From an uncultured Pelagibacteraceae bacterium (lineage in GTDB: Bacteria; Pseudomonadota; Alphaproteobacteria; Pelagibacterales; AG-422-B15), in assembly GCA_902521655.1 (NCBI GenBank), contig CABYSM010000008.1:1-43795 (forward strand): a stretch of 43,795 bases of DNA, written 5' to 3'. The translations under genes and the position numbers were made by a program. Under the pieces are notes generated by a model, which saw only the letters and a program-made list of their open reading frames with translations, was not told the origin of the DNA and did no database searches. Within the stretch, counting starts at the first letter, position 1. Every line of letters starts with the position of its first letter. Positions 6,272 through 25,929 of this stretch are shown here, one piece after another.

Positions 6272-7602
6272 AAAAGAAATATTTTGGAACAGATGGAATT
6301 AGAGCAAGCTCTAATAGCAATAAATTAAATGGACCTTCCCTAATAAATCTAGGAATGGCACTAGGGAAATTTTTTACTAAAGGAAACCACAGGCATAAGG
6401 TTGTAATTGGAAAAGATACCAGACTTTCTGGTTATATGATTGAACAAGCTCTAACATCTGGCCTGCTTTCAATGGGCATGGACGTTTTCTTATTTGGCCC
6501 GATCCCAACTCCTGCGGTCTCAATGTTAACAAAGTCAATGCGAGCTGATCTTGGAATTATGATTACTGCATCTCATAATCAGTATCAAGATAATGGTTTA
6601 AAAATATTCGATAGACTTGGCAACAAGCTCTCTGATGAGACAGAACTAGAGATAGAAAGCCTGATGGAAAGTAAACTTGAAGAATCACTAGCTAAGCCTG
6701 AAAATATAGGGAGAGCTCAAAGATTAGAAGACGCAAATGGCAGATACATAGAATATTTAAAAAATACTTTTCCAAAGACCCAGCGCCTTGATGGATTAAA
6801 AATTGTTGTTGATTGTGCCAATGGTGCTTCATATATATCAGCTCCTCTAATTTTGTGGGAGTTAGGAGCAGAGGTCATTCAAATTGGAACTCAACCAAAT
6901 GGAATAAATATCAATGACAAGTGCGGTTCAACTAATACAGATTTATTGGCAAAAACTGTATTAGAAGAAAATGCTGATATAGGAATTGCATTAGACGGAG
7001 ATGGTGACCGCTTAGCAATAGTTGATGAAAAAGGAAATGTTATTAATGGTGACCAAATCCTTGCGTTGCTAGCATTATATTTGAGCAAAAAAAAATTACT
7101 CCAAAAAAATAAAGTTGTTGGAACATCAATGGCCAATATAGGGTTAGAAAACCTACTCAATGAAAATAATATTGAATTAGTTAGAGCAAATGTTGGCGAT
7201 AGGTATGTTAAAGAAAAAATGATACATGAAAGTCTAAATTTAGGTGGAGAGCAATCAGGCCATATTATCATGAGGGATTATACGTCCTCTGGTGATGGAA
7301 TCATTGTTGCCCTACAAGTACTTGCAATTATTATGAAAAAAGAAAAACAGGCTAGTGAAATTCTTAATTTATTTACTCCACATCCTCAAAACCTCGTTAA
7401 TTTTAAAGTTAAAACTAAGAATATGTTGGAAAGTGATGAAACCAAGAATTTTATTAAAAAGTGTGAGGAAGAAGTTGCAGGTGAAGGTAGAATCGTTGTT
7501 AGAATGTCTGGCACTGAACCACTTTTGAGAGTTATGATAGAGTGTAAAAGTCAGAGTAAAATTGATGAATTAACTGAAAACGTTACAAAATATTTTTCTT
7601 AA
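6268..7602 (+). CDS. glmM: Phosphoglucosamine mutase GlmM
   Basis: 444-residue enzyme converting glucosamine-6-phosphate to glucosamine-1-phosphate on the way to UDP-GlcNAc for peptidoglycan and LPS. The N-terminal KYFGTDGIR motif, the phospho-serine loop TASHNQ (Ser102), the metal loop DGDGDR (Asp243, 245, 247), the sugar-binding GGEQSGH and the C-terminal phosphate-binding RMSGTEPLLR are all present in order. Length is typical. The start overlaps the folP stop by four bases (ATGA), which implies coupled translation. purA follows after 15 bases. Confidence 0.97.
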   Translation: MKKKYFGTDGIRASSNSNKLNGPSLINLGMALGKFFTKGNHRHKVVIGKDTRLSGYMIEQALTSGLLSMGMDVFLFGPIPTPAVSMLTKSMRADLGIMITASHNQYQDNGLKIFDRLGNKLSDETELEIESLMESKLEESLAKPENIGRAQRLEDANGRYIEYLKNTFPKTQRLDGLKIVVDCANGASYISAPLILWELGAEVIQIGTQPNGININDKCGSTNTDLLAKTVLEENADIGIALDGDGDRLAIVDEKGNVINGDQILALLALYLSKKKLLQKNKVVGTSMANIGLENLLNENNIELVRANVGDRYVKEKMIHESLNLGGEQSGHIIMRDYTSSGDGIIVALQVLAIIMKKEKQASEILNLFTPHPQNLVNFKVKTKNMLESDETKNFIKKCEEEVAGEGRIVVRMSGTEPLLRVMIECKSQSKIDELTENVTKYFS

Positions 7603-7614
7603 TATTTAGGATAA

Positions 7615-9788
<2,174 letters not shown>

Positions 9789-10811: not shown

Positions 10812-11084
10812 ATGAACCAGAGAATATTACTATTCATAGTTATTTTTTTAGGATTTTTAATTATTGTTGGCACAACCGTGGTAATCACAACAGTTATTGA
10901 AAGATCAAGAAATGTAGATTTTTTCGAAAATACTACTGATACTGAATTTCATAGTACATGTGGAACATCAGGTATCGAAGATGTTATTAAACTCGAAGAT
11001 CAAAAGATATTGCTTAAATGTTTTGATGGTCCGGTATACATTTATGACTCTAAGAAAAATCAAATTATTACTGAAATTAATTAA
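10812..11084 (+). CDS. Small single-pass membrane protein, unknown function (DUF6476-like by context)
   Basis: 90-residue protein with one strongly hydrophobic N-terminal helix (about residues 4-29) followed by a short mixed region containing a pair of cysteines (CGTSG and LLKCFDG). I recognise no catalytic motif. Small membrane proteins divergent from rluD-rpoH are common in Alphaproteobacteria, and this position suggests that family, but the assignment rests on position and topology only. The C-terminal part after the helix is probably periplasmic, where the two cysteines could form a disulfide. It ends convergently with the GMC gene, sharing TTAA at 11081-11084. Confidence 0.65.
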   Translation: MNQRILLFIVIFLGFLIIVGTTVVITTVIERSRNVDFFENTTDTEFHSTCGTSGIEDVIKLEDQKILLKCFDGPVYIYDSKKNQIITEIN

Positions 11085-12673
11085 TTATTTATAATTGAGT
11101 CAGACGCCTTTTCAGCAATCATTACTGTTGATGCGTTCAGATTACCCGTAATAATATTAGGCATAATTGATGCATCTATGACTCTCAATCCATCTATTCC
11201 GTATACTTTCAGTTCCTCGTCTACAACTGATAAATTGTCTTTACCCATTTTACATGTACATGATGGATGGTATGCAGTATCTCCTTTATCTCTTATAAAA
11301 TTATTCAGATCTTCATCATTGTTTATATCACTTCCTGGTGAGATTTCTTCTCCTCTATATTCATCGAATTCTTTTTGATTAAATATCTCCCTTGCAATTT
11401 TTATTCCTTCTCGCATTTCTCTAAGATCATGTTCAGTTTGCATGTAATTGAATTGGATTGAAGGCGCATCGTTTGGATTAGCTGATTTTAATTTTACTGA
11501 TCCTCTGCTAGTAGGTCGCATCGGTCCAACATGTGCTTGAAAAGCATGGCAGGTAGAGCTCTTTCTTCCATGATCTAAAACTAAAGATGGAAAAAAATGG
11601 AATTGCATATTTGGATAATCAGACATTTCATTGCTCCTCACAAATCCACCTGTTTCTAGATTAGAGTGTGCAGCAACACCCGTCTTAAACAAAAACCATT
11701 CAGCGCCTATCAATGCCATTTTTAACGGGTTCTGAGCGCTGTACAGTGTTACAGGCTTTTTACATTTATATTGAACATAGGTTTCAAGATGGTCTTGCAA
11801 GTTTTTTCCAACTCCCTCTAAACACTCTACTGGCTCAATGCTATATTTTGATAATTCATTTTCTGGACCAATTCCAGAAAGCATAAGTAGTTGAGGTGAA
11901 TTTATAGCCCCAGCAGAAAGCAGGACCTCTTTGCTTGAAAAATATTTTTTATTTTCACCATTCGCCTTGCATTCAACACCAACAGCTTTTTTATCCTCAA
12001 ATAGTATTTTATTTACAGTTACATTTGTTAATATCTCCAAGTTAGATCTGTGCTTTATTGGATGAAGATACGTAACGCTTGTACTTTGCCTCTTTCCATT
12101 AAAAATAGTTGTATCCATTAATCCAAAACCTTCTTGTCTTTCACCATTCATATCATTATTGATTTGATACCCAGCTTGTTGAGCAGCATTTAAATAAACT
12201 TGACTAAGAATATTGCCATTGGGCGATCTTGAAAGTTTTAATGGTCCCGACTCTCCTCGAAAATTTGAGTCTAAACCCTCAACTGACTCAGATTTTTTAA
12301 AATAGGGTAGAACTTTATCATAAGTCCAATCTGTTAAACCTAACTGTCCCCAGTTATCAAAATCTTTTGCATTGCCTCTTACATGAACCATGCCATTGTG
12401 TGAGGAACTTCCTCCCAACATCTTGCCTCTGGGGCAGAACATAGTCCTATTATGCATAAATTGCTCTGGCTCAGATTCATAAAGATAATTATATTTTGGA
12501 TCGTGCATTGTATAAAGCAGTGCTGCAGGCATTGCAGTCTTCCAAGTCTTGTCTGAAGGTCCAGATTCTATTAGCAGGACATTAATAGCTTTATTTGATG
12601 AAAGGCGATTGGCTAGTACACAACCAGCACTACCAGCTCCAATTATAATGTAATCAAAGTTATTTAATTTCAT
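11081..12673 (-). CDS. GMC-family FAD-dependent oxidoreductase, choline dehydrogenase (BetA)-like
   Basis: 530-residue flavoprotein of the glucose-methanol-choline family. The N-terminal ADP-binding fold IIIGAGSAGCVLANRL (~9-24) ends with a ribose-binding acid (LLIES). PRGKMLGGSSSHNGMVHVRGN matches the GMC signature 1 region as seen in BetA, and GAINSPQLLMLSGIGP is signature 2. The C-terminal active-site region has AYHPSCTCKMG with the catalytic His, and then a GNLNASTVMIAEKASD tail. It resembles BetA more than other GMC enzymes, so choline to betaine aldehyde is plausible in this betaine-rich neighbourhood, but GMC substrates are hard to predict and other alcohols remain possible. Confidence 0.8.
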   Translation of the reverse strand: MKLNNFDYIIIGAGSAGCVLANRLSSNKAINVLLIESGPSDKTWKTAMPAALLYTMHDPKYNYLYESEPEQFMHNRTMFCPRGKMLGGSSSHNGMVHVRGNAKDFDNWGQLGLTDWTYDKVLPYFKKSESVEGLDSNFRGESGPLKLSRSPNGNILSQVYLNAAQQAGYQINNDMNGERQEGFGLMDTTIFNGKRQSTSVTYLHPIKHRSNLEILTNVTVNKILFEDKKAVGVECKANGENKKYFSSKEVLLSAGAINSPQLLMLSGIGPENELSKYSIEPVECLEGVGKNLQDHLETYVQYKCKKPVTLYSAQNPLKMALIGAEWFLFKTGVAAHSNLETGGFVRSNEMSDYPNMQFHFFPSLVLDHGRKSSTCHAFQAHVGPMRPTSRGSVKLKSANPNDAPSIQFNYMQTEHDLREMREGIKIAREIFNQKEFDEYRGEEISPGSDINNDEDLNNFIRDKGDTAYHPSCTCKMGKDNLSVVDEELKVYGIDGLRVIDASIMPNIITGNLNASTVMIAEKASDSIINN

Positions 12674-15678: not shown

Positions 15679-16696
15679 AGTTAAAATCAAAATTGAAAAT
15701 CTATATAAAATATTTGGACCTAGGGCCAAAGAGTACACTGATAAAGTAAAAAGTGGGATTGATAAAGATGAACTTCTCGCAAAATATAATCATGTGTTGG
15801 GACTGGACAATATAAATTTAGATATAAAAGAACAATCTATTCAAGTTGTGATGGGTTTGTCTGGTTCAGGAAAATCAACTCTTATTCGTCATATTAATCG
15901 TTTGATAGAGCCAACAGAAGGAACGGTATTGGTTGACGGAGAAGATATAACTAAACTGAACAAAGCAGATTTACTTGAGTTTAGAAGAAATAAAACAGGC
16001 ATGGTATTTCAAAGATTTGCTCTTTTTCCTCATCATAACATATTAGACAATGTTCAATTTGGACTAAGTATAAAAAATTTAGACAAATCAGAGTCGAAGG
16101 ACAAAGCAATGTATTGGATTGAAAAAGTAGGACTTACAGGGTTTGAAAATAAATTTCCAAATCAACTATCAGGTGGCATGCAGCAAAGAGTTGGGCTAGC
16201 TCGAGCACTTGCGATAGATCCAGATATTCTATTAATGGATGAAGCATTTAGCGCACTGGACCCGCTTATAAGGACAGATATGCAAGACCAGCTTCTAGAT
16301 TTACAAAAAAATCTAAAAAAAACAATTATTTTTATAACTCATGATTTAGATGAGGCTCTTAAATTAGGCGATAGAATTGCCATCCTTAATGGCGGAAAAC
16401 TTGTTCAAGATGGTAACGCCGAAGAAATCCTACTCAATCCTGCTGATGACTATGTTTCCAATTTCGTAAAAGATGTAAACCGAATTAAAGTATTAAAAAT
16501 TGGATCTATTATGAACATAGATGGAAATATCAATGAGTCTAATCCATCAGTAATGGTCGATGAAAGTATTGAAAACTGTCTACCAACTATGCTTGAAAGT
16601 GAGTCGGGTCTTAATGTACTCGATAATGATAAAAATTTTGTGGGTGTTATTTCTAAGAATAATATTGCTGAAATCTTGAGAAGATCTAAGGATTAA
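15671..16696 (+). CDS. proV: Glycine betaine/proline-type ABC transporter ATP-binding protein
   Basis: 341-residue ATPase of the betaine importer. Walker A GLSGSGKST (~61-69), signature LSGGMQQRVGLARA, Walker B ILLMDEAFSALD and the H-loop THDLDEA are intact. The C-terminal ~65 residues look like a single CBS-type regulatory repeat, shorter than in OpuAA. The open frame extends upstream to 15614, but I chose ATG 15671: it gives the usual ProV N-terminus (MSEVKIKIENLYKIFG), is preceded by a GCAGGTG ribosome-binding site, and overlaps the proW stop by only 8 bases. The 3' end overlaps the convergent dioxygenase gene by 11 bases. Confidence 0.93.
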   Translation: MSEVKIKIENLYKIFGPRAKEYTDKVKSGIDKDELLAKYNHVLGLDNINLDIKEQSIQVVMGLSGSGKSTLIRHINRLIEPTEGTVLVDGEDITKLNKADLLEFRRNKTGMVFQRFALFPHHNILDNVQFGLSIKNLDKSESKDKAMYWIEKVGLTGFENKFPNQLSGGMQQRVGLARALAIDPDILLMDEAFSALDPLIRTDMQDQLLDLQKNLKKTIIFITHDLDEALKLGDRIAILNGGKLVQDGNAEEILLNPADDYVSNFVKDVNRIKVLKIGSIMNIDGNINESNPSVMVDESIENCLPTMLESESGLNVLDNDKNFVGVISKNNIAEILRRSKD

Positions 16697-17828
16697 TTTT
16701 ATTTAGAAAGTTAAGTCTTCCTATTATTTCATCTCTATCAATATAATATCCCTGCAGGTGTCTTTCACCAGAATTAGCATCATATTCTTTTCGACCGTGA
16801 AGCACCCTTCTATTATTAAAACTGAATATATCTCCAGCTTTAAGTTTGAAATTTATTTCAAATATTGGATCGTGAAGTAAGGCAATTAGTTTTCGGTAAG
16901 CTTCATAAAACTTGTCCATTTGGTCGGGAACGCAGTCCATAACTCCCATATAAGCAACACTAAATCTTATGTCATTAAAATCATTATTGTGATCTAAGGA
17001 AAATAGAGGCTTATGCATTACCCTTATAGCATTTGAAGTATAATCTCTATTTACAAATTTAACAGGAGTTTCCAAGAGAGTTTCAAAGAATTCAGTAAAA
17101 TTTTCTTTCATATAACTAGCAACTTTAAATCCATCGACTGCGACAGACTCACCTCCAGTGGCATTGTTAATCAGACAATGCAAGAATTGATATCCTGGTG
17201 CTATTTCATAGTATGGGAGATCCAAATGATTTCTTAACGCGGCTGCGGTATAAGCAGAATTATTTGGATTAGGAATATCAATAACTTCAAAAGGTGTTTT
17301 AAAAAATGTTTCTCTATGGTGACTAATATTAGCAATTACATCAAATCCAGACTCCTTTTCTGTAGGCGCGTTTTTCACAATAGAAATGCCTTTGTAGTGA
17401 AGTTGCTCAAGCCACTTTTTTATTCCATCATCTCCACTAATAATTTCTTCATAGTCTATTTGAATGTCTTCAAAATTTGACTCCATGCTTTGATCCCATA
17501 GAAAATATGGTGATATATATTTTTTTTTACTGTTAAGTGTATAGCAATTATGTCTTAGCCAATCATTGCCATAGTAACTTGTATGATCACCCTCACTCCA
17601 TTCAATCTCAAGCTCACCTTTATCATTTACTTTATAAGACTTTGGATGAATATCATCTGTAACTGTTAGTAGGTTGAAAGTTCTCTCTCTTGCAGTTGGA
17701 TGAACCTCTGATGGACAATTATCTCTTAGCCATAAAAAATTAAACTTACTTTGTTCACCATCACTCCAATCAACAAGTATTGATTTATCATTCTTTTTCA
17801 ACGACGATATAGATGGATTATGACTCAT
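16686..17828 (-). CDS. Gamma-butyrobetaine dioxygenase-like 2OG-Fe(II) oxygenase (BBOX family)
   Basis: 380-residue non-heme iron, 2-oxoglutarate-dependent oxygenase. Residues ~15-100 form the N-terminal DUF971-type domain of gamma-butyrobetaine hydroxylases; the rest is a TauD-like catalytic fold with iron ligands His201-x-Asp203 (NHLDLPYYE) and His344 (RVLHGR) and a 2-oxoglutarate-binding Arg near 356. It is encoded directly after carnitine dehydrogenase and BKACE, so hydroxylation of gamma-butyrobetaine to L-carnitine is the best fit. In the N-terminal domain the usual CxCxxC zinc ligands read C38-P-S40-E-V-H43, with a His at 82. Trimethyllysine dioxygenase is the main alternative. Confidence 0.85.
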   Translation of the reverse strand: MSHNPSISSLKKNDKSILVDWSDGEQSKFNFLWLRDNCPSEVHPTARERTFNLLTVTDDIHPKSYKVNDKGELEIEWSEGDHTSYYGNDWLRHNCYTLNSKKKYISPYFLWDQSMESNFEDIQIDYEEIISGDDGIKKWLEQLHYKGISIVKNAPTEKESGFDVIANISHHRETFFKTPFEVIDIPNPNNSAYTAAALRNHLDLPYYEIAPGYQFLHCLINNATGGESVAVDGFKVASYMKENFTEFFETLLETPVKFVNRDYTSNAIRVMHKPLFSLDHNNDFNDIRFSVAYMGVMDCVPDQMDKFYEAYRKLIALLHDPIFEINFKLKAGDIFSFNNRRVLHGRKEYDANSGERHLQGYYIDRDEIIGRLNFLNKINP

Positions 17829-17831
17829 AAA

Positions 17832-18803
17832 TTATTTAAAATTATTGTATTTCCTATCCCAATTTGGAAACTTATCTTTTTGATTTTTATTTAAAGTTTT
17901 CATAATTTCAATCAAAAATAAATCTCTTTGTTCCTCAAGCTCTTGGATATTAAACTTTCCAGCCTGTTTTTTTGTTCCAGAAACCATTGCTTTTTTTAGT
18001 TTATTCGTCAATTCAGGAGCTTTCAACTTAGTCCAAGGTAGTTTTAGAGCAGGACCAAATTGCTCCAGCATATGTTTCATTCCAGTTTCTCCACCAGCTA
18101 AATGAAATGTCAAACAAACCCCCATAAAAGCCCATCTTAATCCAGGACCATAGACAATAGCATCATCAACTTCCTCAGTTGATGCTACGCCATCATTTAT
18201 TATATGCAAGGCCTCACGCCATAAAGCTTCTTGAAGTCTGTCTGAAATGTATCCTTCAATTTCTTTTTGAACAATAAGCGGTCGCATTCCAATATGTTCA
18301 TATAATTTTTTTAATTTTTTAACATTTGTATGACTAGTTTTTTTACCAGCTACAATCTCCACAAGAGGCAATAAGTATACTGGATTAAATGGATGTCCGA
18401 TTAAAACTCTTTCAGGAAATTTGCAGGCGGATTGAATTTTTGATGGTAGTAATCCAGAAGAACTAGATGCAATTATAACATTTTTGGGAATTATATTATC
18501 AATTGTTTTTAGAATATTTTTTTTTATTCTTTCACTTTCAGGCGCATTTTCCTGAACAAAGGTTGTTTCATGTAAAGCATCATTCAAATTAGTAAAAACA
18601 TTTAGATTCTTCAATGAAGCGTTTTTATTTAAACCTAACTTTTTAAGACTTTTAAAGGCAGTCTGAATATTTTTTTTTAATTTTTCTAGAGACTCTTTAT
18701 TGGGGTCATAAGCTTTAACAACATAACCTTTAGCAAGAAATCGTGCCGCCCATCCAGCGCCAATTACGCCTGTTCCAATAATCGAAACAATCTTTCTTTT
18801 CAA
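17832..18803 (-). CDS. lcdH: L-carnitine dehydrogenase (3-hydroxyacyl-CoA dehydrogenase family)
   Basis: 323-residue NAD-dependent dehydrogenase that oxidises L-carnitine to 3-dehydrocarnitine. The Rossmann motif [18 protein letters not shown] (~10-27), the catalytic GHPFNP (His137) and the [20 protein letters not shown] helix are clear. The segment [26 protein letters not shown] separates this group from ordinary 3-hydroxybutyryl-CoA dehydrogenases and matches carnitine dehydrogenases. No thioesterase domain is fused at the C-terminus, unlike some carnitine dehydrogenases. It overlaps the BKACE gene by four bases and is three bases ahead of the dioxygenase, so the three form a tight operon. 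Confidence 0.88.
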
Positions 18804-19684
18804 CTTTTTAATCCAAGTTTGATTCTTGCTTCATCAGGACCCATTACATTCGAGCCTAAATTATTTATTATTGTACCAGCCTTCTCAACAAGTGATCCAT
18901 TTGTTGCATAAACACCTTTTTCTAAATAAAGATTATCTTCAAGACCAACTCTAACATTGCCTCCTAATAATACTGCTTGCGCTACCATTGGCATTTGATT
19001 AATTCCAATTCCAAAAGCTCCCCAGTTACTTCCTTCAGGTACCATATCAACCATATTCTTCATTGAACCGGTAGTCGCAGGCGCACCGTACGGTATACCT
19101 AAACAAATTTGAAACAATGAAGGCTGATCTAGCAATCCTTCCTCTAACATCTGGTTTGCAAACCACAAATGACCTGTATCAAAGACTTCTAGTTCAGGTT
19201 TAACTCCTAATTCTTTAATTCTCTTAGCGCCAATTCTTAGTTGTTCTGGGGTTCCAACATAGATCATATTTCCATCACCAAAATTTAGAGTACCGCAATC
19301 TAAGGAACATATATCTGGCAATAGTTCTTCAACGTGACTTAGTCTTTCAAGTGCATTTACAAAATCTGTATTCGAACCAAAGTTTAATAAATCATCTTCT
19401 GGACCAATTTCTATATCTCCTCCCATTCCACTTGTGAGATTAATTATCACATTCGTTCCACTATCTTTAATTCGACTAACTACTTCCTTATAGAGTTCAT
19501 TATCTCGGGATCCCTGTCCAGTTTCAGGATTTCTGACATGAATATGGGCTATAGCGGCTCCAGCATTAGCTGCCTCAATAGAGGCATCAGCTATTTGTTG
19601 AGGAGTAACAGGAATATTAGGATGCTTTCCAACTGAGTCCCCCGATCCGGTAACTGCACAAGAAATGATAACATTTTTATTCAT
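18800..19684 (-). CDS. Beta-keto acid cleavage enzyme (BKACE, DUF849), probable dehydrocarnitine cleavage enzyme
   Basis: 294-residue zinc-dependent enzyme of the DUF849/BKACE family, which exchanges the acyl part of a beta-keto acid onto acetyl-CoA and releases acetoacetate. The [10 protein letters not shown] motif carries the zinc ligands His47 and His49, and VRVGLEDN near residue 255 is the second conserved site. Next to carnitine dehydrogenase, its expected substrate is 3-dehydrocarnitine, giving betainyl-CoA plus acetoacetate. It is first in the minus-strand operon BKACE-lcdH-dioxygenase and is divergent from the aldehyde dehydrogenase gene across 69 bases. Another beta-keto acid is possible but less likely here. 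Confidence 0.88.
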
Positions 19685-19753: not shown

Positions 19754-21178
19754 ATGAAAAATCTTCAAAAATTTTATATTAACGGTAAATGGGTAAAACC
19801 AAATTCAACTAAAACAATGGCAGTTCTCAACCCCGCAACCGAAGATTTGATAGGTGAGATAATTCTTGGTAATTCTGAAGATGTAGATATGGCTGTGAGC
19901 GCTGCAAAAAATGCATTTAATAGCTTTTCTAAAACCTCAAAAAATGATCGTTTAGAATTATTAAATAAAATTAGGAAGATCTCTGAAAAAAGATTTGAAG
20001 ATCTTGCTAATGCAATGACATCAGAAATGGGAGCTCCTCATAGAATGGCTCGAGATGCACAGGCAGATGCTGCAATAGGACATTTAGATGGTTTTATTGA
20101 TGCATTAAAGAAGCATGAAGAAAAAATTGTTCTCTCTAATTCAGATGTACTTTTAAAAGAGCCAATAGGAGTTTGTGGTTTAATTACTCCATGGAACTGG
20201 CCCATTAATCAAATTACACTGAAAGTCCTTCCAGTGATTGCTACAGGATGCACATGTATCTTAAAGCCGTCTGAGCATACACCTTTATCAGCGATGGTTT
20301 ACGCTGAAATTCTAGATGAGGCCGGAGTTCCTGATGGTGTATTTAATTTAGTACATGGAGATGGAGAAGGAGTAGGTGTGTCGATGTCTCGGCATCCAGA
20401 TATAGAAATGATGTCATTTACTGGCTCAAAAAGAGGAGGTAAGTCAGTAACTATTGAATCTGCTGAAACTGTAAAAAAAGTAACTTTAGAATTAGGTGGT
20501 AAATCACCTAACATTGTCTTTGCAGATTGTGACTTAGATGAAAAAGTAAAAGATTCAGTAAATGAATGTATGTTTAATACAGGACAATCTTGTGATGCTC
20601 CTACAAGGTTACTGGTAGAAAAAAAATGCTACGATGAAGTAATTGATATTGCAAAAAAAACTGCCGAAGAAATTAAGGTAGGTGATCCGACACTAGATGG
20701 TGACCATCTCGGACCACTCTTTGATAAAATTCAATTTGATCGGGTTCAAGATATGATTCAAGTTGGTATTGATGAAGGAGCAAAACTATTAGTAGGTGGC
20801 CTTGGAAAGCCCGATGGTCATGAAAAAGGGTGGTTTGTAAAACCAACAATTTTTTCTGACGTAAATAACAATATGAGAGTTGCTCAAGAGGAAATATTTG
20901 GTCCAGTACTAGTTATAATTCCTTTTGATGATGAGGATGAGGCGATCAGAATAGCAAATGATACTCCTTATGGTCTTGCTGCCTATTTGCAGACGGGAGA
21001 TAAAGAAAGAGCAGAACGAGTCTCAAGGCAATTAAGAGCTGGCGGTGTTCATGTTAATGGTGGCGGTTATAATTACGGCTCACCTTTTGGAGGATATAAG
21101 GAATCTGGCAATGGACGAGAAGGTGGAGACATGGGGCTAGAAGATTACCTTGAAACTAAAGCACTTCACATTGCCTAA
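19754..21178 (+). CDS. NAD(P)-dependent aldehyde dehydrogenase
   Basis: 474-residue aldehyde dehydrogenase. The cofactor region ITPWNWPINQ, the catalytic Glu246 in LELGGKSP and the catalytic Cys280 in NTGQSCDAPTR are intact, and the C-terminal EEIFGPVL and FGGYKESGNGREGG elements are normal. Cluster position suggests a trimethylammonium aldehyde: 4-trimethylaminobutyraldehyde (giving gamma-butyrobetaine) or betaine aldehyde (giving glycine betaine, pairing with the BetA-like gene). The GQSCDAPTR active site is like the CddD-type group rather than classical BetB (GQVCTNGTR), so substrate is open. It heads a plus-strand string with the CoA synthetase, TmpA-like and TmpB-like genes. Confidence 0.9.
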   Translation: MKNLQKFYINGKWVKPNSTKTMAVLNPATEDLIGEIILGNSEDVDMAVSAAKNAFNSFSKTSKNDRLELLNKIRKISEKRFEDLANAMTSEMGAPHRMARDAQADAAIGHLDGFIDALKKHEEKIVLSNSDVLLKEPIGVCGLITPWNWPINQITLKVLPVIATGCTCILKPSEHTPLSAMVYAEILDEAGVPDGVFNLVHGDGEGVGVSMSRHPDIEMMSFTGSKRGGKSVTIESAETVKKVTLELGGKSPNIVFADCDLDEKVKDSVNECMFNTGQSCDAPTRLLVEKKCYDEVIDIAKKTAEEIKVGDPTLDGDHLGPLFDKIQFDRVQDMIQVGIDEGAKLLVGGLGKPDGHEKGWFVKPTIFSDVNNNMRVAQEEIFGPVLVIIPFDDEDEAIRIANDTPYGLAAYLQTGDKERAERVSRQLRAGGVHVNGGGYNYGSPFGGYKESGNGREGGDMGLEDYLETKALHIA

Positions 21179-21198: not shown

Positions 21199-23145
21199 AT
21201 GCCAAAGTTGCTTTGGAGACCATCTAAGGAAAGAATTGAAAATACAAAATTATATAATTATTTTATTTTTTTAGAAGAAAACAACAAAATACAATTAAAC
21301 TTTGATTATAGTAAAATCTGGTCGTGGAGTATTAATCAACCCGTTGAATTTTGGCTAAGCTTAATTGATTATGTGGGCATAAAGTACAAAGGAAGTTCCA
21401 GTCCTGTTATTGAAAAAGATAAATCTATATATAACCAAGAATTTTTCAAAAATATTAAAGTTAATTATGCCGAAAATATATTATCTAATCTTAACTCATG
21501 CCCGATTACCTTTATCAATGAACTTGGTTTCAAGAAAAGTTATTATAAGGAAGATTTAGTATCAAAAACTTCAAGATTAGCTAACTATTTTAGGTCTATT
21601 GGGGTCAAAAAAGGAGATCGGATTGCAGCTGTTTCCGTAAACAGCGCTGAGACACTCATTGCATTTTTAGCAGTGAACTCTATTGGAGCAATATGGTCAT
21701 CTTGCTCACCAGATTTTGGTGAAGTTGCTATTTTAGATCGTTTTAATCAAATAAAACCAAAAGTATTACTATATTCTAAAATATATTTATATGGTGGAAA
21801 AAAATTTGATGTTGAAAAAAAGATAAAAAATGTAATTAATAAAATTCAATCACTCGAACATACTTTTTGTATTAATTACCCAGACAAGAAACAGGATGAA
21901 GAAATAGAAGGAATAAGTTTAAATTCAATTTTCCAAAAAGAAACTTATGAAGGAAAGATTATTTATGAAGAAAACTTATTCAATGACCCCATGTATATTC
22001 TATATTCTAGTGGAACAACTGGTAAGCCTAAATGTATAGTTCATAATACCGGTGGCCCACTGTTACAACATATAAAAGAGCAACAGCTTCATTGTGATCT
22101 AAAAATAGGTGACAAATTATTTTATTACACAACCTGTGGCTGGATGATGTGGAATTGGCTTATTACAGGTTTAGCGTCAGGAGTTTCATTAGTACTTTAT
22201 GACGGATCCCCATTTTATCCAGAGAAAGAAGCCCTTTTTCAAATTGCTGAAGAAGAAGAAATTACATGCTTTGGAACAAGTGCAAAATTTATAGATGCTT
22301 TAAGGAATGATAAGGTAAATATTTTAGAAAAATATAATTTGGGCAAACTTCAATCAATATTAAGCACAGGATCTCCGCTTATCAGTGAGAGTTTTGAGTA
22401 TGTGTATGAATTCATTAAAAAAGATGTTCATCTGGCTTCCATTAGTGGAGGTACAGACATTGTGTCTTGCTTTGTAGGAGGTAATCCAATGTTGCCAGTT
22501 TACTCTGGTGAAATACAAAGTAAGTGTCTTGGAGTGGACGTAGATGTATTTGATGAAAAAAGCCAGAGCACGCTACAGAAAGGAGAGCTGGTATGTAAAT
22601 CTGCACTTCCATCTATGCCGATTGGGTTTTGGGATGACTTAAATAAAGAGAAATATATTAAGTCATACTTTACAAAATTTAATAATGTATGGACACAAGG
22701 TGATTATGCCAAAATATCTCAAAATAATGGAATAGTTATTTATGGACGTTCGGACTCAACATTAAACCCTGGTGGAATCAGAATTGGTACTGCCGAAATA
22801 TATAGGTCTGTAGAACAAATAGATGAAATTGTTGAATCCATTGTAGTTGGTCAGTCTTGGGACAATGATACAAGAATTGTTCTATTCGTGAAACTTCAAA
22901 ATGATATTGAACTTGATCAAGCTATTATTGATAAAATTAAAAATAATATAAAATCTTCTAATTCTATAAGGCATGTACCAGCAAAAATTATAAAAGTAAG
23001 TGATATACCTAGAACAAGAAGTGGCAAAATAGCAGAAATCACTGTGAGAGATATAATAAATGGCATGAAAGTAAAGAATTTAGAGGCTTTAGCCAATCCA
23101 GTTTGTTTATCTGAATATGAAAATATTGAAGAATTAAATAAATAG
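21199..23145 (+). CDS. Acetoacetyl-CoA synthetase
   Basis: 648-residue adenylate-forming ligase that activates acetoacetate to acetoacetyl-CoA. The N-terminal signature (WSWSINQPVEFWLSLIDYVGI), the phosphate loop ILYSSGTTGKPKCIVH, TTCGWMMWNWLITGL and the C-terminal catalytic lysine motif (PRTRSGKI) fit acetoacetyl-CoA synthetases, as does the length (~650). It starts 20 bases after the aldehyde dehydrogenase gene. In this locus acetoacetate is the expected second product of BKACE cleavage of dehydrocarnitine, so the gene closes the carbon loop to two acetyl-CoA after thiolysis. Acetyl-CoA synthetase is less likely given the sequence around GWMMWNW. Confidence 0.92.
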   Translation: MPKLLWRPSKERIENTKLYNYFIFLEENNKIQLNFDYSKIWSWSINQPVEFWLSLIDYVGIKYKGSSSPVIEKDKSIYNQEFFKNIKVNYAENILSNLNSCPITFINELGFKKSYYKEDLVSKTSRLANYFRSIGVKKGDRIAAVSVNSAETLIAFLAVNSIGAIWSSCSPDFGEVAILDRFNQIKPKVLLYSKIYLYGGKKFDVEKKIKNVINKIQSLEHTFCINYPDKKQDEEIEGISLNSIFQKETYEGKIIYEENLFNDPMYILYSSGTTGKPKCIVHNTGGPLLQHIKEQQLHCDLKIGDKLFYYTTCGWMMWNWLITGLASGVSLVLYDGSPFYPEKEALFQIAEEEEITCFGTSAKFIDALRNDKVNILEKYNLGKLQSILSTGSPLISESFEYVYEFIKKDVHLASISGGTDIVSCFVGGNPMLPVYSGEIQSKCLGVDVDVFDEKSQSTLQKGELVCKSALPSMPIGFWDDLNKEKYIKSYFTKFNNVWTQGDYAKISQNNGIVIYGRSDSTLNPGGIRIGTAEIYRSVEQIDEIVESIVVGQSWDNDTRIVLFVKLQNDIELDQAIIDKIKNNIKSSNSIRHVPAKIIKVSDIPRTRSGKIAEITVRDIINGMKVKNLEALANPVCLSEYENIEELNK

Positions 23146-23161
23146 TTTTATATTTTTTTTT

Positions 23162-24253
23162 ATGGATTTTGATTATGACTCAAAAGAAATAAGGTTTTCT
23201 GTAGGAGATGAGCAATATAAGCTTCATCCTTTATGGATGAGAGAAAGGTCACTAGAAGAAGGTACAGTTGATCAAAACTCATTACAAAGACTCTATGACC
23301 CAGAGAAAATTTCTGAAAATTTAGAAATTAAGGAAGTAAATAAGTTAGAAAAAGACAAACTGTTAATTAAATTCTCAGACAATCATGTAGCTAAGTATTG
23401 TATTAAAAACTTGATTAAAGAGATCAAGAGGGCAAAAGGACTTCCTGATAAAGTTCTTTGGAATAAAGAGAATATCTCACTCAGAAAGTTTAAATTTGAT
23501 TATAGTAAAAATGAAAATAAACAAATTTATGAAATATTAGAATATTATCATAGATATGGATTTGCAATTGTAAGCGCACTGAAACCTGAAGATGGTGAGA
23601 TTATAAATTTTGCAAAAAAAATTGGATATATAAGAGAAACTAATTTTGGAAAATTATTTAACGTCAAGTCTCAAAAGCAACCAAACGATTTAGCATATAC
23701 ATCTATTGAATTAGAGTCTCATACTGATAATCCATATCGAAAACCAGTGCCTTCAATTCAATTTTTATTTTGTATTAATAATAGCTGCCGAGGAGGCGAC
23801 TCAACTATTGTAGATGGCTTTAAGGTTGCAGAGGATTTAAAAAATGAAAATCTAAATGCGTTTAATACTCTTACAAATACTCTAATCAATTTCAAATTTA
23901 AAGACAAAGATGCTATCCTAGAAAAGACAGGTAAGATTATAAAGTTGAGTGAGCGTGGAGAGCTAAAGCAAATAAAGTATAGTAACAGACTAGATTTTGT
24001 TTTTTATCAAGAACCTAAAAAACTCGATGAATTTTACGCAGCAAAAAGAATTATGCATCAAATGATAAATTCATCAAAATATTTATTTAAGTTTCGCCTT
24101 GAGCCTGGAGACCTAATTATTATGAATAATTATAGAACACTTCATGGTAGAACAAGTTATAATACAGCTGAAGGTGGTAGATGGCTGCAGGGATTATATA
24201 TAGATCATGATTCTGCAGAAAGTAAGTTTAAATTATTGGCAGAGGAAATATAA
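23162..24253 (+). CDS. tmpA: Probable 2-trimethylaminoethylphosphonate dioxygenase TmpA (gamma-butyrobetaine hydroxylase-like)
   Basis: 363-residue Fe(II)/2-oxoglutarate oxygenase. The N-terminal DUF971-like region (~1-95) lacks zinc-type cysteines; the catalytic domain has iron ligands His187-x-Asp189 (SHTDNPYR), His328 (TLHGR) and a likely 2OG-binding Arg340. By family it would be called gamma-butyrobetaine hydroxylase, but it abuts an HD-domain oxygenase gene with zero gap. In TmpA-TmpB, characterised in Leisingera, TmpA hydroxylates 2-trimethylaminoethylphosphonate at C1 and TmpB cleaves the product. A different BBOX gene already serves the carnitine genes 6 kb away, which supports a separate role. 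Function is inferred from context plus family. Confidence 0.75.
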   Translation: MDFDYDSKEIRFSVGDEQYKLHPLWMRERSLEEGTVDQNSLQRLYDPEKISENLEIKEVNKLEKDKLLIKFSDNHVAKYCIKNLIKEIKRAKGLPDKVLWNKENISLRKFKFDYSKNENKQIYEILEYYHRYGFAIVSALKPEDGEIINFAKKIGYIRETNFGKLFNVKSQKQPNDLAYTSIELESHTDNPYRKPVPSIQFLFCINNSCRGGDSTIVDGFKVAEDLKNENLNAFNTLTNTLINFKFKDKDAILEKTGKIIKLSERGELKQIKYSNRLDFVFYQEPKKLDEFYAAKRIMHQMINSSKYLFKFRLEPGDLIIMNNYRTLHGRTSYNTAEGGRWLQGLYIDHDSAESKFKLLAEEI

Positions 24254-24805
24254 ATGGAAAAAGTAAAATTTACTCAGATGAAACACGGCACAAAAGAAGA
24301 TTATGATCTTTTAAGTAAGTATGAAGAAAAGTTTTCAAAAGATCTTCCCGACAGAATATTAGATGCTTTGAAAAATTTAGATAGTTCAGTTGATGGTTAT
24401 CAAGTAACAAGGTTAGAGCATTCGCTTCAATCAGCAACTCGAGCTGAAAAAGATGGCGCAGATGAAGAAATGGTAGTGGCGACTCTTGTACACGATATTG
24501 GAGATAATCTTGCCCCATATAATCATAGTCAACTTGTTGCCTCAGTTTTAAGGCCCTATGTTTCTGAAAAAGTATATTGGATTATGCTTCATCACGGGAT
24601 TTTTCAAGAATATTACTATGCTCATCACATAGGGAGGGATCGTAATGCTAGAGATAAATTCATAGATCACCCTTATTATCAAGATGCAGTAGATTTCTGT
24701 GAAAAGTGGGATCAAAGGTCTTTTGATCCAGATTATGAGTCATATTCTCTTGAATATTTTGAACCAAAAGTTAGGAAGTTGTTCTCCAAGGAGCCAAATT
24801 TTTAA
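24254..24805 (+). CDS. tmpB: Probable HD-domain diiron oxygenase TmpB (PhnZ-like), C-P bond cleaving
   Basis: 183-residue HD-fold protein. Likely diiron ligands are His56 (RLEHSLQSATRAE), His80-Asp81 (LVHDIGD), His91, His113 or His114 and Asp153 (EKWDQRSFD); the 24-residue spacing from first His to the HD pair equals my recollection of PhnZ (34 to 58). MIOX/PhnZ-like HD proteins are oxygenases, not phosphohydrolases. TmpB turns (R)-1-hydroxy-2-trimethylaminoethylphosphonate into glycine betaine and phosphate. The ATG directly follows the tmpA stop, with an AGAGGAA ribosome-binding site inside tmpA. It ends convergently with the KAS III gene, sharing TTAA at 24802-24805. An ordinary HD phosphohydrolase is the alternative. 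Confidence 0.78.
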   Translation: MEKVKFTQMKHGTKEDYDLLSKYEEKFSKDLPDRILDALKNLDSSVDGYQVTRLEHSLQSATRAEKDGADEEMVVATLVHDIGDNLAPYNHSQLVASVLRPYVSEKVYWIMLHHGIFQEYYYAHHIGRDRNARDKFIDHPYYQDAVDFCEKWDQRSFDPDYESYSLEYFEPKVRKLFSKEPNF

Positions 24806-25929
24806 GCTATCTTTTTCACAATAACATTCCCAACAGAATAACCTGCCCCAAAAGAGCAAATAATTGCGAGATCATCTTTTTTTAGTGAGTTGTTATGTTT
24901 ATGAAAAGCAATTATTGAACCTGCAGAACTTGTATTAGCATATTCGTCGAGTACGACGGGAGCCAGATTTCTAGAGGCTTCTTTGCCAAGCACATATTTA
25001 GAAATAAGAACATTCATATTTTCATTTGCTTGATGTAAATACATTCCCTTTAAATCCTCGGCGGAAAGTTTATTTTCTTCTAAATGATCCCTTATTAAAT
25101 TAGAAACTTTAGGTATGACTTCTTTAAATACTTTTCTTCCATTTTGATGAAACAATTTATCTGCCTTACCGACTCCTTCAGGAGACGAACTATTTAAAAA
25201 TCCATAATTGTTTCTTATATTATTAGAAAACTCTGTGAGGAGCTTTGTTCCAAGTATTTCATACGAGTTATTTTTATGAATATCTCCACTCATTCTTTCT
25301 AAAACTACAGCTGTTGCAACATCTCCAAATATAAAATGGCAGTCTCTATCTTTAAAATTTAAATGACCAGTACAAATCTCTGGGTTGACCATTAAGGCTG
25401 ATTTAATACTTCCACTCTTTATCATATCAAAAATGGTTTGAATTCCAAAAGTAGCTGAGGAACAAGCAACATTCATATCGAATGCGAATCCCTCAATGCC
25501 TAATTCATTTTGAATCTCGATTGCTATCGCCGGGTAAGCACGTTCTAAATTCGAGCATGCAACAATGACAGCATCTATCTCTTTAACATCAATTTGTGAA
25601 TTTTTTATCGCCTCTTTTGCAGCAATTACTCCCATTTCAGCGAGATTGGATATTTGATCCTCAGATCTTTCATTAAGTCTTGGACGCATAAAAGATGTGT
25701 CTAAAATTCCTGATTTATTTTGAACATATCTAGATTTTACACCTGAAGCTTTCTCAATAAACTCTGCACTAGATTTTTCTAGTGGTTCCACACTTCCATT
25801 ATTTATATCTATAGAGTTTGATGAATTGTATTCATCTACATACTTATTGTATGAGTCGACTAATTCTTGGTTGGAAATTTTTTCTTGAGGAGTGAATAGC
25901 CCTGTTCCCGATATTTGTACTCTAAACAT
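24802..25929 (-). CDS. Beta-ketoacyl-ACP synthase III-like enzyme (PA3286-type)
   Basis: 375-residue thiolase-fold condensing enzyme with the KAS III catalytic triad Cys156 (NVACSSATF), His299 (YLHQANENMN) and Asn332 (YANTSSAGS). It is longer than housekeeping FabH (~317) because of an insertion near residues 30-90, and it closely resembles, from memory, the Pseudomonas PA3286 group that primes fatty-acid synthesis with medium-chain acyl-CoA. Such enzymes can feed beta-oxidation products into new fatty acids. It stands alone on the minus strand, ending against tmpB. A link to the quaternary-amine genes is not evident. Confidence 0.85.
   Translation of the reverse strand: MFRVQISGTGLFTPQEKISNQELVDSYNKYVDEYNSSNSIDINNGSVEPLEKSSAEFIEKASGVKSRYVQNKSGILDTSFMRPRLNERSEDQISNLAEMGVIAAKEAIKNSQIDVKEIDAVIVACSNLERAYPAIAIEIQNELGIEGFAFDMNVACSSATFGIQTIFDMIKSGSIKSALMVNPEICTGHLNFKDRDCHFIFGDVATAVVLERMSGDIHKNNSYEILGTKLLTEFSNNIRNNYGFLNSSSPEGVGKADKLFHQNGRKVFKEVIPKVSNLIRDHLEENKLSAEDLKGMYLHQANENMNVLISKYVLGKEASRNLAPVVLDEYANTSSAGSIIAFHKHNNSLKKDDLAIICSFGAGYSVGNVIVKKIA

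Follow-up and report, generated by a model that had tools for sequence, protein, structure and literature searches.

A stretch of 43,795 nucleotides from an uncultured Pelagibacteraceae bacterium (assembly GCA_902521655.1, contig CABYSM010000008.1; hereafter the window) carries a tandem pair of putative oxygenase genes. The first, TMPA (23162-24253, + strand), encodes an Fe(II)/2-oxoglutarate (2OG) oxygenase of 363 amino acids recognized by search, tree, and structural model, and belongs to the sister clade of TmpA. The second, HD (24254-24805, + strand), encodes a protein of 183 amino acids that is, by its predicted fold, an HD-domain diiron oxygenase of a family distinct from TmpB/PhnZ. Both open reading frames (ORFs) are real, intact, and in tandem; as an earlier note on this DNA had observed, no gap separates them, the TAA stop of TMPA (24251-24253) being directly followed by the ATG start of HD at 24254. 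The source genome comprises 1.0 Mb in 43 contigs and is 76% complete.

The earlier note took the pair for TmpA and TmpB, acting on choline phosphonate. The enzyme classes that it named are upheld, the first protein being on the basis of sequence and tree a 2OG oxygenase nearer TmpA than gamma-butyrobetaine hydroxylase (GBBH) or trimethyllysine hydroxylase (TMLH), and the second being by fold and ligands an HD oxygenase of the PhnZ/TmpB/MIOX type. The phosphonate assignment is not. The balance tips slightly toward a module of two oxygenases working in the manner of TmpA-TmpB but belonging to a different lineage and acting on a different substrate, a non-phosphonate quaternary-ammonium zwitterion, to give a betaine.

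The 2OG oxygenase TMPA

The best PDB match of TMPA is TmpA (6NPB, 195 bits), ahead of human GBBH at 151 bits. It remains below the cut-offs of the TmpA model NF049936 of NCBIfam (341 bits, cut-off 400), the GBBH model TIGR02409 (292.8 bits, cut-off 414.75), and the TMLH model TIGR02410 (179.4 bits, cut-off 268.3). One member of the TMPA clade, L249, lies over the TmpA cut-off (423 of 400 bits) and another, L248, falls just short of it at 398 bits; therefore, the TmpA model alone does not separate the clades. The structural model of TMPA (predicted local distance difference test, pLDDT, 86.0) could not tell the two enzymes apart either, since its VIA Z-scores of 34.5 to TmpA and 34.1 to GBBH amount to a tie.

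A tree was built under LG+G4 without a mixture from 50 rows, left after hand-thinning of 11 SAR11 rows from the 61 non-redundant ones. The 23 TMPA-like rows, including the window, form one clade (100/99) that is sister to a 20-row TmpA clade (100/99). The latter consists of 13 proteins encoded beside a TmpB over its cut-off, six beside HD proteins below the cut-off, and the TmpA of L. caerulea. GBBH- and TMLH-like rows fall outside (99/95), provided that the root lies among these; human GBBH and the L212 oxygenase are long branches whose mutual placement is unsure. A position of TMPA nearer to TmpA than to GBBH or TMLH is thus supported by sequence and tree, and its assignment as a plain GBBH or TMLH was rejected, as it is below both cut-offs and outside both groups. 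The profile search and phylogeny proposed in the earlier note stand as to a TmpA-sister placement apart from GBBH, but no TmpA or TmpB cut-off is passed and TMPA lies outside the TmpA clade. Named sequences closest to TMPA belong to single cells of the Pelagibacteraceae, among them AG-894-A11 (98%) and AG-333-C14 (96%). All 80 TMPA loci kept come from SAR11-type or uncultured Alphaproteobacteria, which marks the window as DNA of a SAR11-type bacterium.

The motif recognized in the earlier note (HTD at 187-189 and His328) holds in a 16-row alignment, in which H187, D189, and H328 are invariant and T188 is nearly so. The substrate site was compared in 61 of 196 rows, selected at an 80% identity cut. 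In TmpA, N187, N287, and R288 hydrogen-bond the phosphonate (PMC9296572), and in BBOX, N191 and N292 hydrogen-bond the carboxylate (PMC4497603). The TMLH counterpart of BBOX N191, D231, is believed to contact the alpha-ammonium group of trimethyllysine (PMC7764450). The column of TmpA N187 and BBOX N191 holds Asp in all 34 TMPA-like rows (Asp176 in the window, codon 23687-23689, + strand), Asn in 20/20 TmpA-clade rows, and Asn or Ser in the six GBBH-like rows. The TmpA phosphonate-ligand trio is therefore incomplete in TMPA, N187 being changed and the other two residues kept. Asp176 also occupies the place of TMLH Asp231, an equivalence that is taken from PMC7764450 and not from an aligned TMLH sequence.

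At the column of TmpA R288, Arg is found in 33 and Lys in one of the 34 TMPA-like rows (R276 in the window, codon 23987-23989, + strand), and Arg in all 20 TmpA rows. The N287 column is variable in the TMPA-like rows (N 7, P 18, T 5, G 4), with the window keeping Asn (N275), and holds Asn in 15 of the 20 TmpA rows. BBOX column 292 is Ser in 32/34 TMPA-like rows versus Asn in 20/20 TmpA rows, and column 177 is Phe (31) or Trp (3) in the former versus Tyr in all of the latter. TMPA resembles BBOX and TMLH in fold, in its cage positions, and in the Asp at the TMLH 231 place, while differing from them in tree position and model scores.

Of note, the L212 oxygenase (2-1189, - strand) scores 251 bits against the trimethyllysine dioxygenase model (cut-off 268) and has Asp in column 191 and Trp in column 181. 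Next to it are a gene of the TmpA clade and one for a TmpB-like HD protein that stays under the cut-off; its sequence makes the oxygenase a possible bacterial TMLH.

The HD protein

The six diiron ligands H56, H80, D81, H91, H114, and D153 are invariant in a 15-row alignment and in 36/36 window-type rows. Residues 40-84 of HD align without gaps to residues 18-62 of PhnZ, so that the PhnZ-like spacing pointed out in the earlier note holds, and all six ligands are present beyond those first counted. The sequence matches to PhnZ (32 bits) and TmpB (27 bits) are confined to residues 40-86, and none of the TmpB/PhnZ-type model cut-offs is passed (36.7 of 300 bits for NF049941, 43.1 of 214.6 for TIGR03276, and 30.3 of 300 for NF052439).

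PhnZ and TmpB use a YxxE substrate loop (Y24/E27 and Y30/E33, respectively) that is missing from myo-inositol oxygenase (MIOX), which cleaves a C-C bond (PMC8177086). Residues were compared in 57 of 194 rows selected at a 75% identity cut, 36 of the window type and 21 of the TmpB/PhnZ type. None of the 36 window-type rows has the loop (Tyr46 plus Glu49), and the window itself has V46 and Y49. These rows instead share Arg53, Trp109, and Gln118 (each 36/36) as well as Asp84 (35/36, with one Glu). The TmpB/PhnZ-type rows have Tyr46 in 20/21, Glu49 in 21/21, Lys118 in 21/21, and His84 in 19/21.

The AlphaFold model of HD (pLDDT 88.8) is closest to PhnZ (VIA Z 17.0, root-mean-square deviation 2.4 over 154 residues) and TmpB (16.5, 2.8 over 156), followed by MIOX (11.2 and 9.9; 3.3 over 141), with the next entries at or below 7.3. 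Helical models can reach Z-scores of about 13-14 by chance; the MIOX match would therefore mean little by itself, and the comparison leans on PhnZ and TmpB. The first ten Foldseek matches of the model are all PhnZ or TmpB. HD is, according to this predicted fold and its sequence, an HD oxygenase in a family of its own, apart from TmpB/PhnZ. A phosphohydrolase assignment was rejected on the fold, as PhnZ, TmpB, and MIOX rank ahead of hydrolases. The structure prediction suggested in the earlier note thus agrees with its class assignment, as do the six ligands kept in the alignments; the outcomes named beforehand as refuting, namely clustering of TMPA with GBBH/TMLH or an HD protein lacking the six ligands and grouping with phosphohydrolases, did not occur.

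The pairing of a 2OG hydroxylase with an HD oxygenase is already known. PhnY-PhnZ, which degrades aminoethylphosphonate, likewise follows hydroxylation with HD-oxygenase cleavage, and PhnZ is the best fold match of HD. However, HD lacks the PhnZ YxxE loop, and the 2OG partner in the window is of the GBBH/TmpA type; PhnY belongs to another family. MIOX shares with HD a diiron HD-oxygenase site without YxxE but has 14% identity, a larger chain, and no 2OG partner. The HD oxygenases named in PMC8177086 are MIOX, PhnZ, and TmpB, to which PMC10574752 adds PhoF from fungi and a methylphosphonate PhnZ. Neither the HD family of the window pair, nor its hydroxylase clade, nor its probable class of substrate appears among the pairs described in the available text of these two papers or in the literature matches listed. 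Among those matches, in a search that left subscription papers mostly outside, no title or abstract concerns this pair or a bacterial trimethyllysine HD oxygenase.

Distribution and gene context

Among 147 SAR11-order genomes, HD is found in 112 and TMPA in 108; 106 have both, six HD only, two TMPA only, and 33 neither, relatedness being ignored in these counts. TMPA was counted at E < 1e-90 (11 of 119 listed genomes are weaker), and G031, G079, and G089 were dropped because their sole HD match is short and weak. The co-occurrence holds when the genes are unlinked, as in the single-contig G005 (556 kb apart) and in G013 (71 kb). At least five near-complete main-genus Pelagibacter genomes (G011, G024, G026, G064, and G066) lack both genes. 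HD lies directly downstream in 23 of the 80 TMPA loci, and no HD is seen within the available stretch in the other 57. Outside SAR11, TMPA occurs at E < 1e-90 in 4/398 genomes, all four of which carry HD, adjacent in three. A P. aeruginosa plasmid has the same TMPA-HD order, followed by genes for a choline-binding protein, a BetA-like dehydrogenase, and an aldehyde dehydrogenase. The recurrence of the pair in the same order in distant genomes indicates that it is not due to chance. No phage record matched HD.

As the earlier note had it, the pair lies in a carnitine/betaine locus. Directly upstream is an acetoacetyl-CoA synthetase gene (21199-23145, + strand; TIGR01217 753 bits, cut-off 521), preceded by an aldehyde dehydrogenase gene (19754-21178, + strand) below the cut-off of all 25 models listed, the best being HpaE at 451 and BADH at 435 bits. 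On the - strand follow BKACE (18800-19684; PF05853 315 bits), a probable dehydrocarnitine cleavage enzyme judging from its context and from the BKACE reaction, a carnitine 3-dehydrogenase (CDH)-like gene (17832-18803; NF005471 370 bits, cut-off 414), and a GBBH-like 2OG oxygenase (16686-17828; TIGR02409 305 bits, cut-off 415) that is a separate paralogue with Asn at position 191. A choline-dehydrogenase-like (BetA-like) GMC oxidoreductase (11081-12673, - strand) scores 772 bits with PRK02106 (cut-off 605) and 702 bits with betA (cut-off 732), and a ProV-type ABC transporter also belongs to the locus. On the opposite strand, a beta-ketoacyl-ACP synthase III-type gene (24802-25929, - strand; PRK07515 595 bits) overlaps the end of HD by four bases. 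Between 9826 and 30213, 20 of 21 ORFs were scanned and no phosphonate family exceeds its cut-off in them, and the use of a phosphonate as a phosphate source, put forward in the earlier note, is left as an unsupported inference.

Similar neighbors recur elsewhere. BKACE, CDH, and a GBBH-like gene lie beside the pair in L251; in L252, BKACE and CDH lie beside TMPA, with HD on another contig. The glycine betaine transporter genes ProX/ProW lie beside the pair in L049, choline substrate-binding protein and BetA-like genes do so in L031, and a GBBH-like gene lies 6-9 kb from it in L151 and L154. Many Pelagibacter TMPA loci show none of these neighbors. In high-GC loci, several of the gene calls made by simple scripts were wrong (the pair was missed in L250 and HD in L031), and only named genes are used there. 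In the 10 proteins scanned from HD neighborhoods outside SAR11, there is no common theme (a permease, EamA, a class II aldolase, WS/DGAT, a cyclase twice, LysR, and three without a match). A carnitine/choline genomic island with two BBOX-labelled genes has been described in Arctic SAR11, and the section describing the island names no HD protein (PMC12421898).

Two further neighbors were considered and set aside. A DMGDH-family protein encoded near the L151 pair seemed linked in 13 of 15 chosen genomes (G000 at 33% identity; none in G001 and G007). It is found in 71/147 genomes order-wide, including the pair-negative same-genus genomes G011, G024, G026, G064, and G066, and therefore says nothing about the pair; at that threshold, none occurs among the rows listed for the window's family. 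A gene of the homocysteine S-methyltransferase family that adjoins the pair in L151 and L135 did not turn up in those 15 genomes, in a search with no positive control, and is therefore not named the SAR11 Bhmt.

Other HD proteins were encountered in SAR11. A second Pelagibacter type of 178 amino acids (L059 6066-7436, also L062, L064, and L066) keeps YxxE and Lys in L059 and L066 and scores 153-168 bits to the TmpB/Phn-HD models in L059. Its gene neighbors are a TauD-like 2OG oxygenase (L059, L064) and a BetA-like dehydrogenase, and a BKACE/carnitine dehydrogenase locus either includes it or lies close by. By its sequence, this type is a better candidate for the SAR11 phosphonate oxygenases than the window pair. 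In the window's genus, L060 (6865-7464), L061, and L065 encode a 199-amino-acid PhnZ1-like HD oxygenase (188 of 300 bits, models having been run on L060 only) that adjoins a PhnD/PhnE-type transporter and a 171-amino-acid ORF.

Candidate substrates and reaction

The pair probably acts on a methylated nitrogen compound other than choline phosphonate, and its linked carnitine/betaine loci point to a quaternary-ammonium substrate that feeds betaine metabolism. In the first step, proposed on the basis of fold, motifs, and tree, an aromatic cage of F162, F166, and Y179 in TMPA would hold the trimethylammonium (possibly sulfonium) group. The polar end of the substrate would lie between Asp176 and Arg276, and the carbon beside that end would be hydroxylated with 2OG, O2, and Fe(II). 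An Asp-plus-Arg site suits, as far as residues can tell, a group with an ammonium or hydroxyl plus a carboxylate. HD, with its PhnZ/MIOX-type diiron site, would then oxidatively cleave the bond beside the new carbinol. This bond would most likely be C-C, given that both proteins depart from the known phosphonate-site features, and its cleavage would yield a betaine carboxylate and a small fragment, for example glyoxylate. The betaine product would join the butyrobetaine/carnitine/glycine-betaine route encoded nearby.

Several observations weigh against this scheme. C-C cleavage is deduced solely from the altered phosphonate-site features, the MIOX match has a Z-score that helical models can reach by chance, and Asp176 and Arg276 may pair with each other. 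The aromatic cage is missing (W/A/M) in L248 and L249, two members of the clade whose genomes have carnitine genes next to TMPA. The HD family is present at E < 1e-20 in 59/398 Pseudomonadota genomes, 54 of which are without TMPA at E < 1e-90; HD may therefore act independently on some general substrate. Pelagibacter L046 has HD (7878-8438) between purF and gshA/gshB without TMPA, which the model does not explain. Gene sizes suggest a like placement in most of the other Pelagibacter loci L044-L058, the genes being named in L046 only. L151 encodes a TmpB/PhnZ-type HD protein with YxxE (7510-8055) about 1 kb upstream of the pair; both HD types can thus share a locus, and the partner of TMPA there may be questioned. 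Of the 106 pair-bearing SAR11 genomes, 31 (25 outside the window's family) lack both BBOX (E < 1e-60) and CDH (E < 1e-50); unless they have some other route, butyrobetaine or carnitine formed there would lead nowhere. BBOX and CDH are present in G004 and G006, which lack the pair.

Two candidates lead, each with evidence against it. The first, to be entertained tentatively, is trimethyllysine catabolism, in which TMPA would form 3-hydroxy-trimethyllysine and HD would cleave its C2-C3 bond to gamma-butyrobetaine, glyoxylate, and ammonia, with GBBH, carnitine dehydrogenase, and BKACE of the locus leading on to glycine betaine. It is consistent with Asp176 at the TMLH Asp231 place, with an Arg276 that could hold the carboxylate, and with GBBH-like, CDH, and BKACE genes accompanying the pair in the window and L251 (a GBBH-like gene also in L151 and L154). 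However, TMPA lies outside the TMLH lineage, so that its Asp is an analogy only, and scores 179 bits with the TMLH model, short of its cut-off of 268. In addition, the trimethyllysine chain is two carbons longer than that of the TmpA substrate, the cage is missing in the two clade members from carnitine settings, and GBBH and CDH are both missing in the 31 genomes noted above.

In the second, the pair would cleave butyrobetaine or carnitine directly, yielding glycine betaine together with glycolate or glyoxylate as the two-carbon acid, with no need for carnitine dehydrogenase. This fits those 31 genomes better than trimethyllysine does but does not fit the Asp, which differs from the Asn or Ser present in the six GBBH-like rows. 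The reaction, for which 2-hydroxycarnitine is also conceivable as a substrate, is rather unlikely. Linkage to carnitine genes, the MIOX-like absence of YxxE, and the glycine betaine transporter genes in L049 speak for it, while many genomes have both routes and, to our knowledge, no HD oxygenase cleaves carnitine.

That the pair is a divergent TmpA-TmpB converting 2-trimethylaminoethylphosphonate to glycine betaine and phosphate is doubtful. The window pair shares with the Leisingera caerulea enzymes the 2OG-then-HD order, the sister-clade relationship, the conserved Arg288 and, in the window, Asn287, the six diiron ligands, and an HD-oxygenase fold; choline/betaine genes lie nearby, and L249 exceeds the TmpA cut-off. 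In contrast, Asp replaces Asn187 in 34/34 rows, HD is without YxxE and has Gln for Lys, differences that argue against a phosphonate, and HD matches over residues 40-86 only, far below the TmpB, PhnZ1, and Phn-HD cut-offs. The context is one of carnitine/betaine genes, with no phosphonate family over cut-off in 20/21 ORFs around the pair. TmpAB is a separate lineage: among 337 genomes of the class, TmpB exceeds the curated cut-off in 13, and each of these 13 loci has an ORF of the TmpA clade beside it, whereas the window pair joins the other hydroxylase clade to another HD family. On the basis of the cut-offs, the Asp, and the missing loop, the pair was thus rejected as TmpAB proper, contrary to the earlier note. 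Very improbable is a phosphohydrolase-type HD protein with chemistry unrelated to TMPA and paired with it by operon coincidence, for which the TMPA-less HD near purF/gshA in L046 and the varied settings elsewhere might speak, but not the fold (Z 17 to oxygenases versus 7.3 for the next others), the six ligands, or the co-occurrence even when unlinked.

Eight Pelagibacter genomes (G042, G046, G068, G099, G119, G123, G125, and G134) have one in-frame stop in the GBBH-like match and one or two in the carnitine dehydrogenase match, which may reflect decay or an alignment edge; TMPA and HD have none in these genomes.

If the favored two-oxygenase module is as it seems, the labels butyrobetaine hydroxylase, TmpA, and HD phosphohydrolase mislead in one of the most abundant groups of ocean bacteria, and, as L249 at 423 bits illustrates, phosphonate use does not necessarily follow from a match to the TmpA model. 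One more lineage would join the few HD oxygenases, and the consumption of methylated amines by SAR11 would become testable. Speculatively, the pair may represent a new way, common in SAR11, of oxidizing a methylated nitrogen compound, with a C-C bond being cleaved by a TmpA-like hydroxylase together with HD diiron oxygenases of a new family. In its boldest form, this would be a bacterial pathway from trimethyllysine to butyrobetaine, with a single HD oxygenase taking the place of the eukaryotic aldolase and aldehyde dehydrogenase and releasing glyoxylate, in line with the C-C cleavage chemistry of hydroxy amino acids. SAR11 bacteria use glyoxylate, and, if this route is true, the glyoxylate released would be a possible source of glycine for them.

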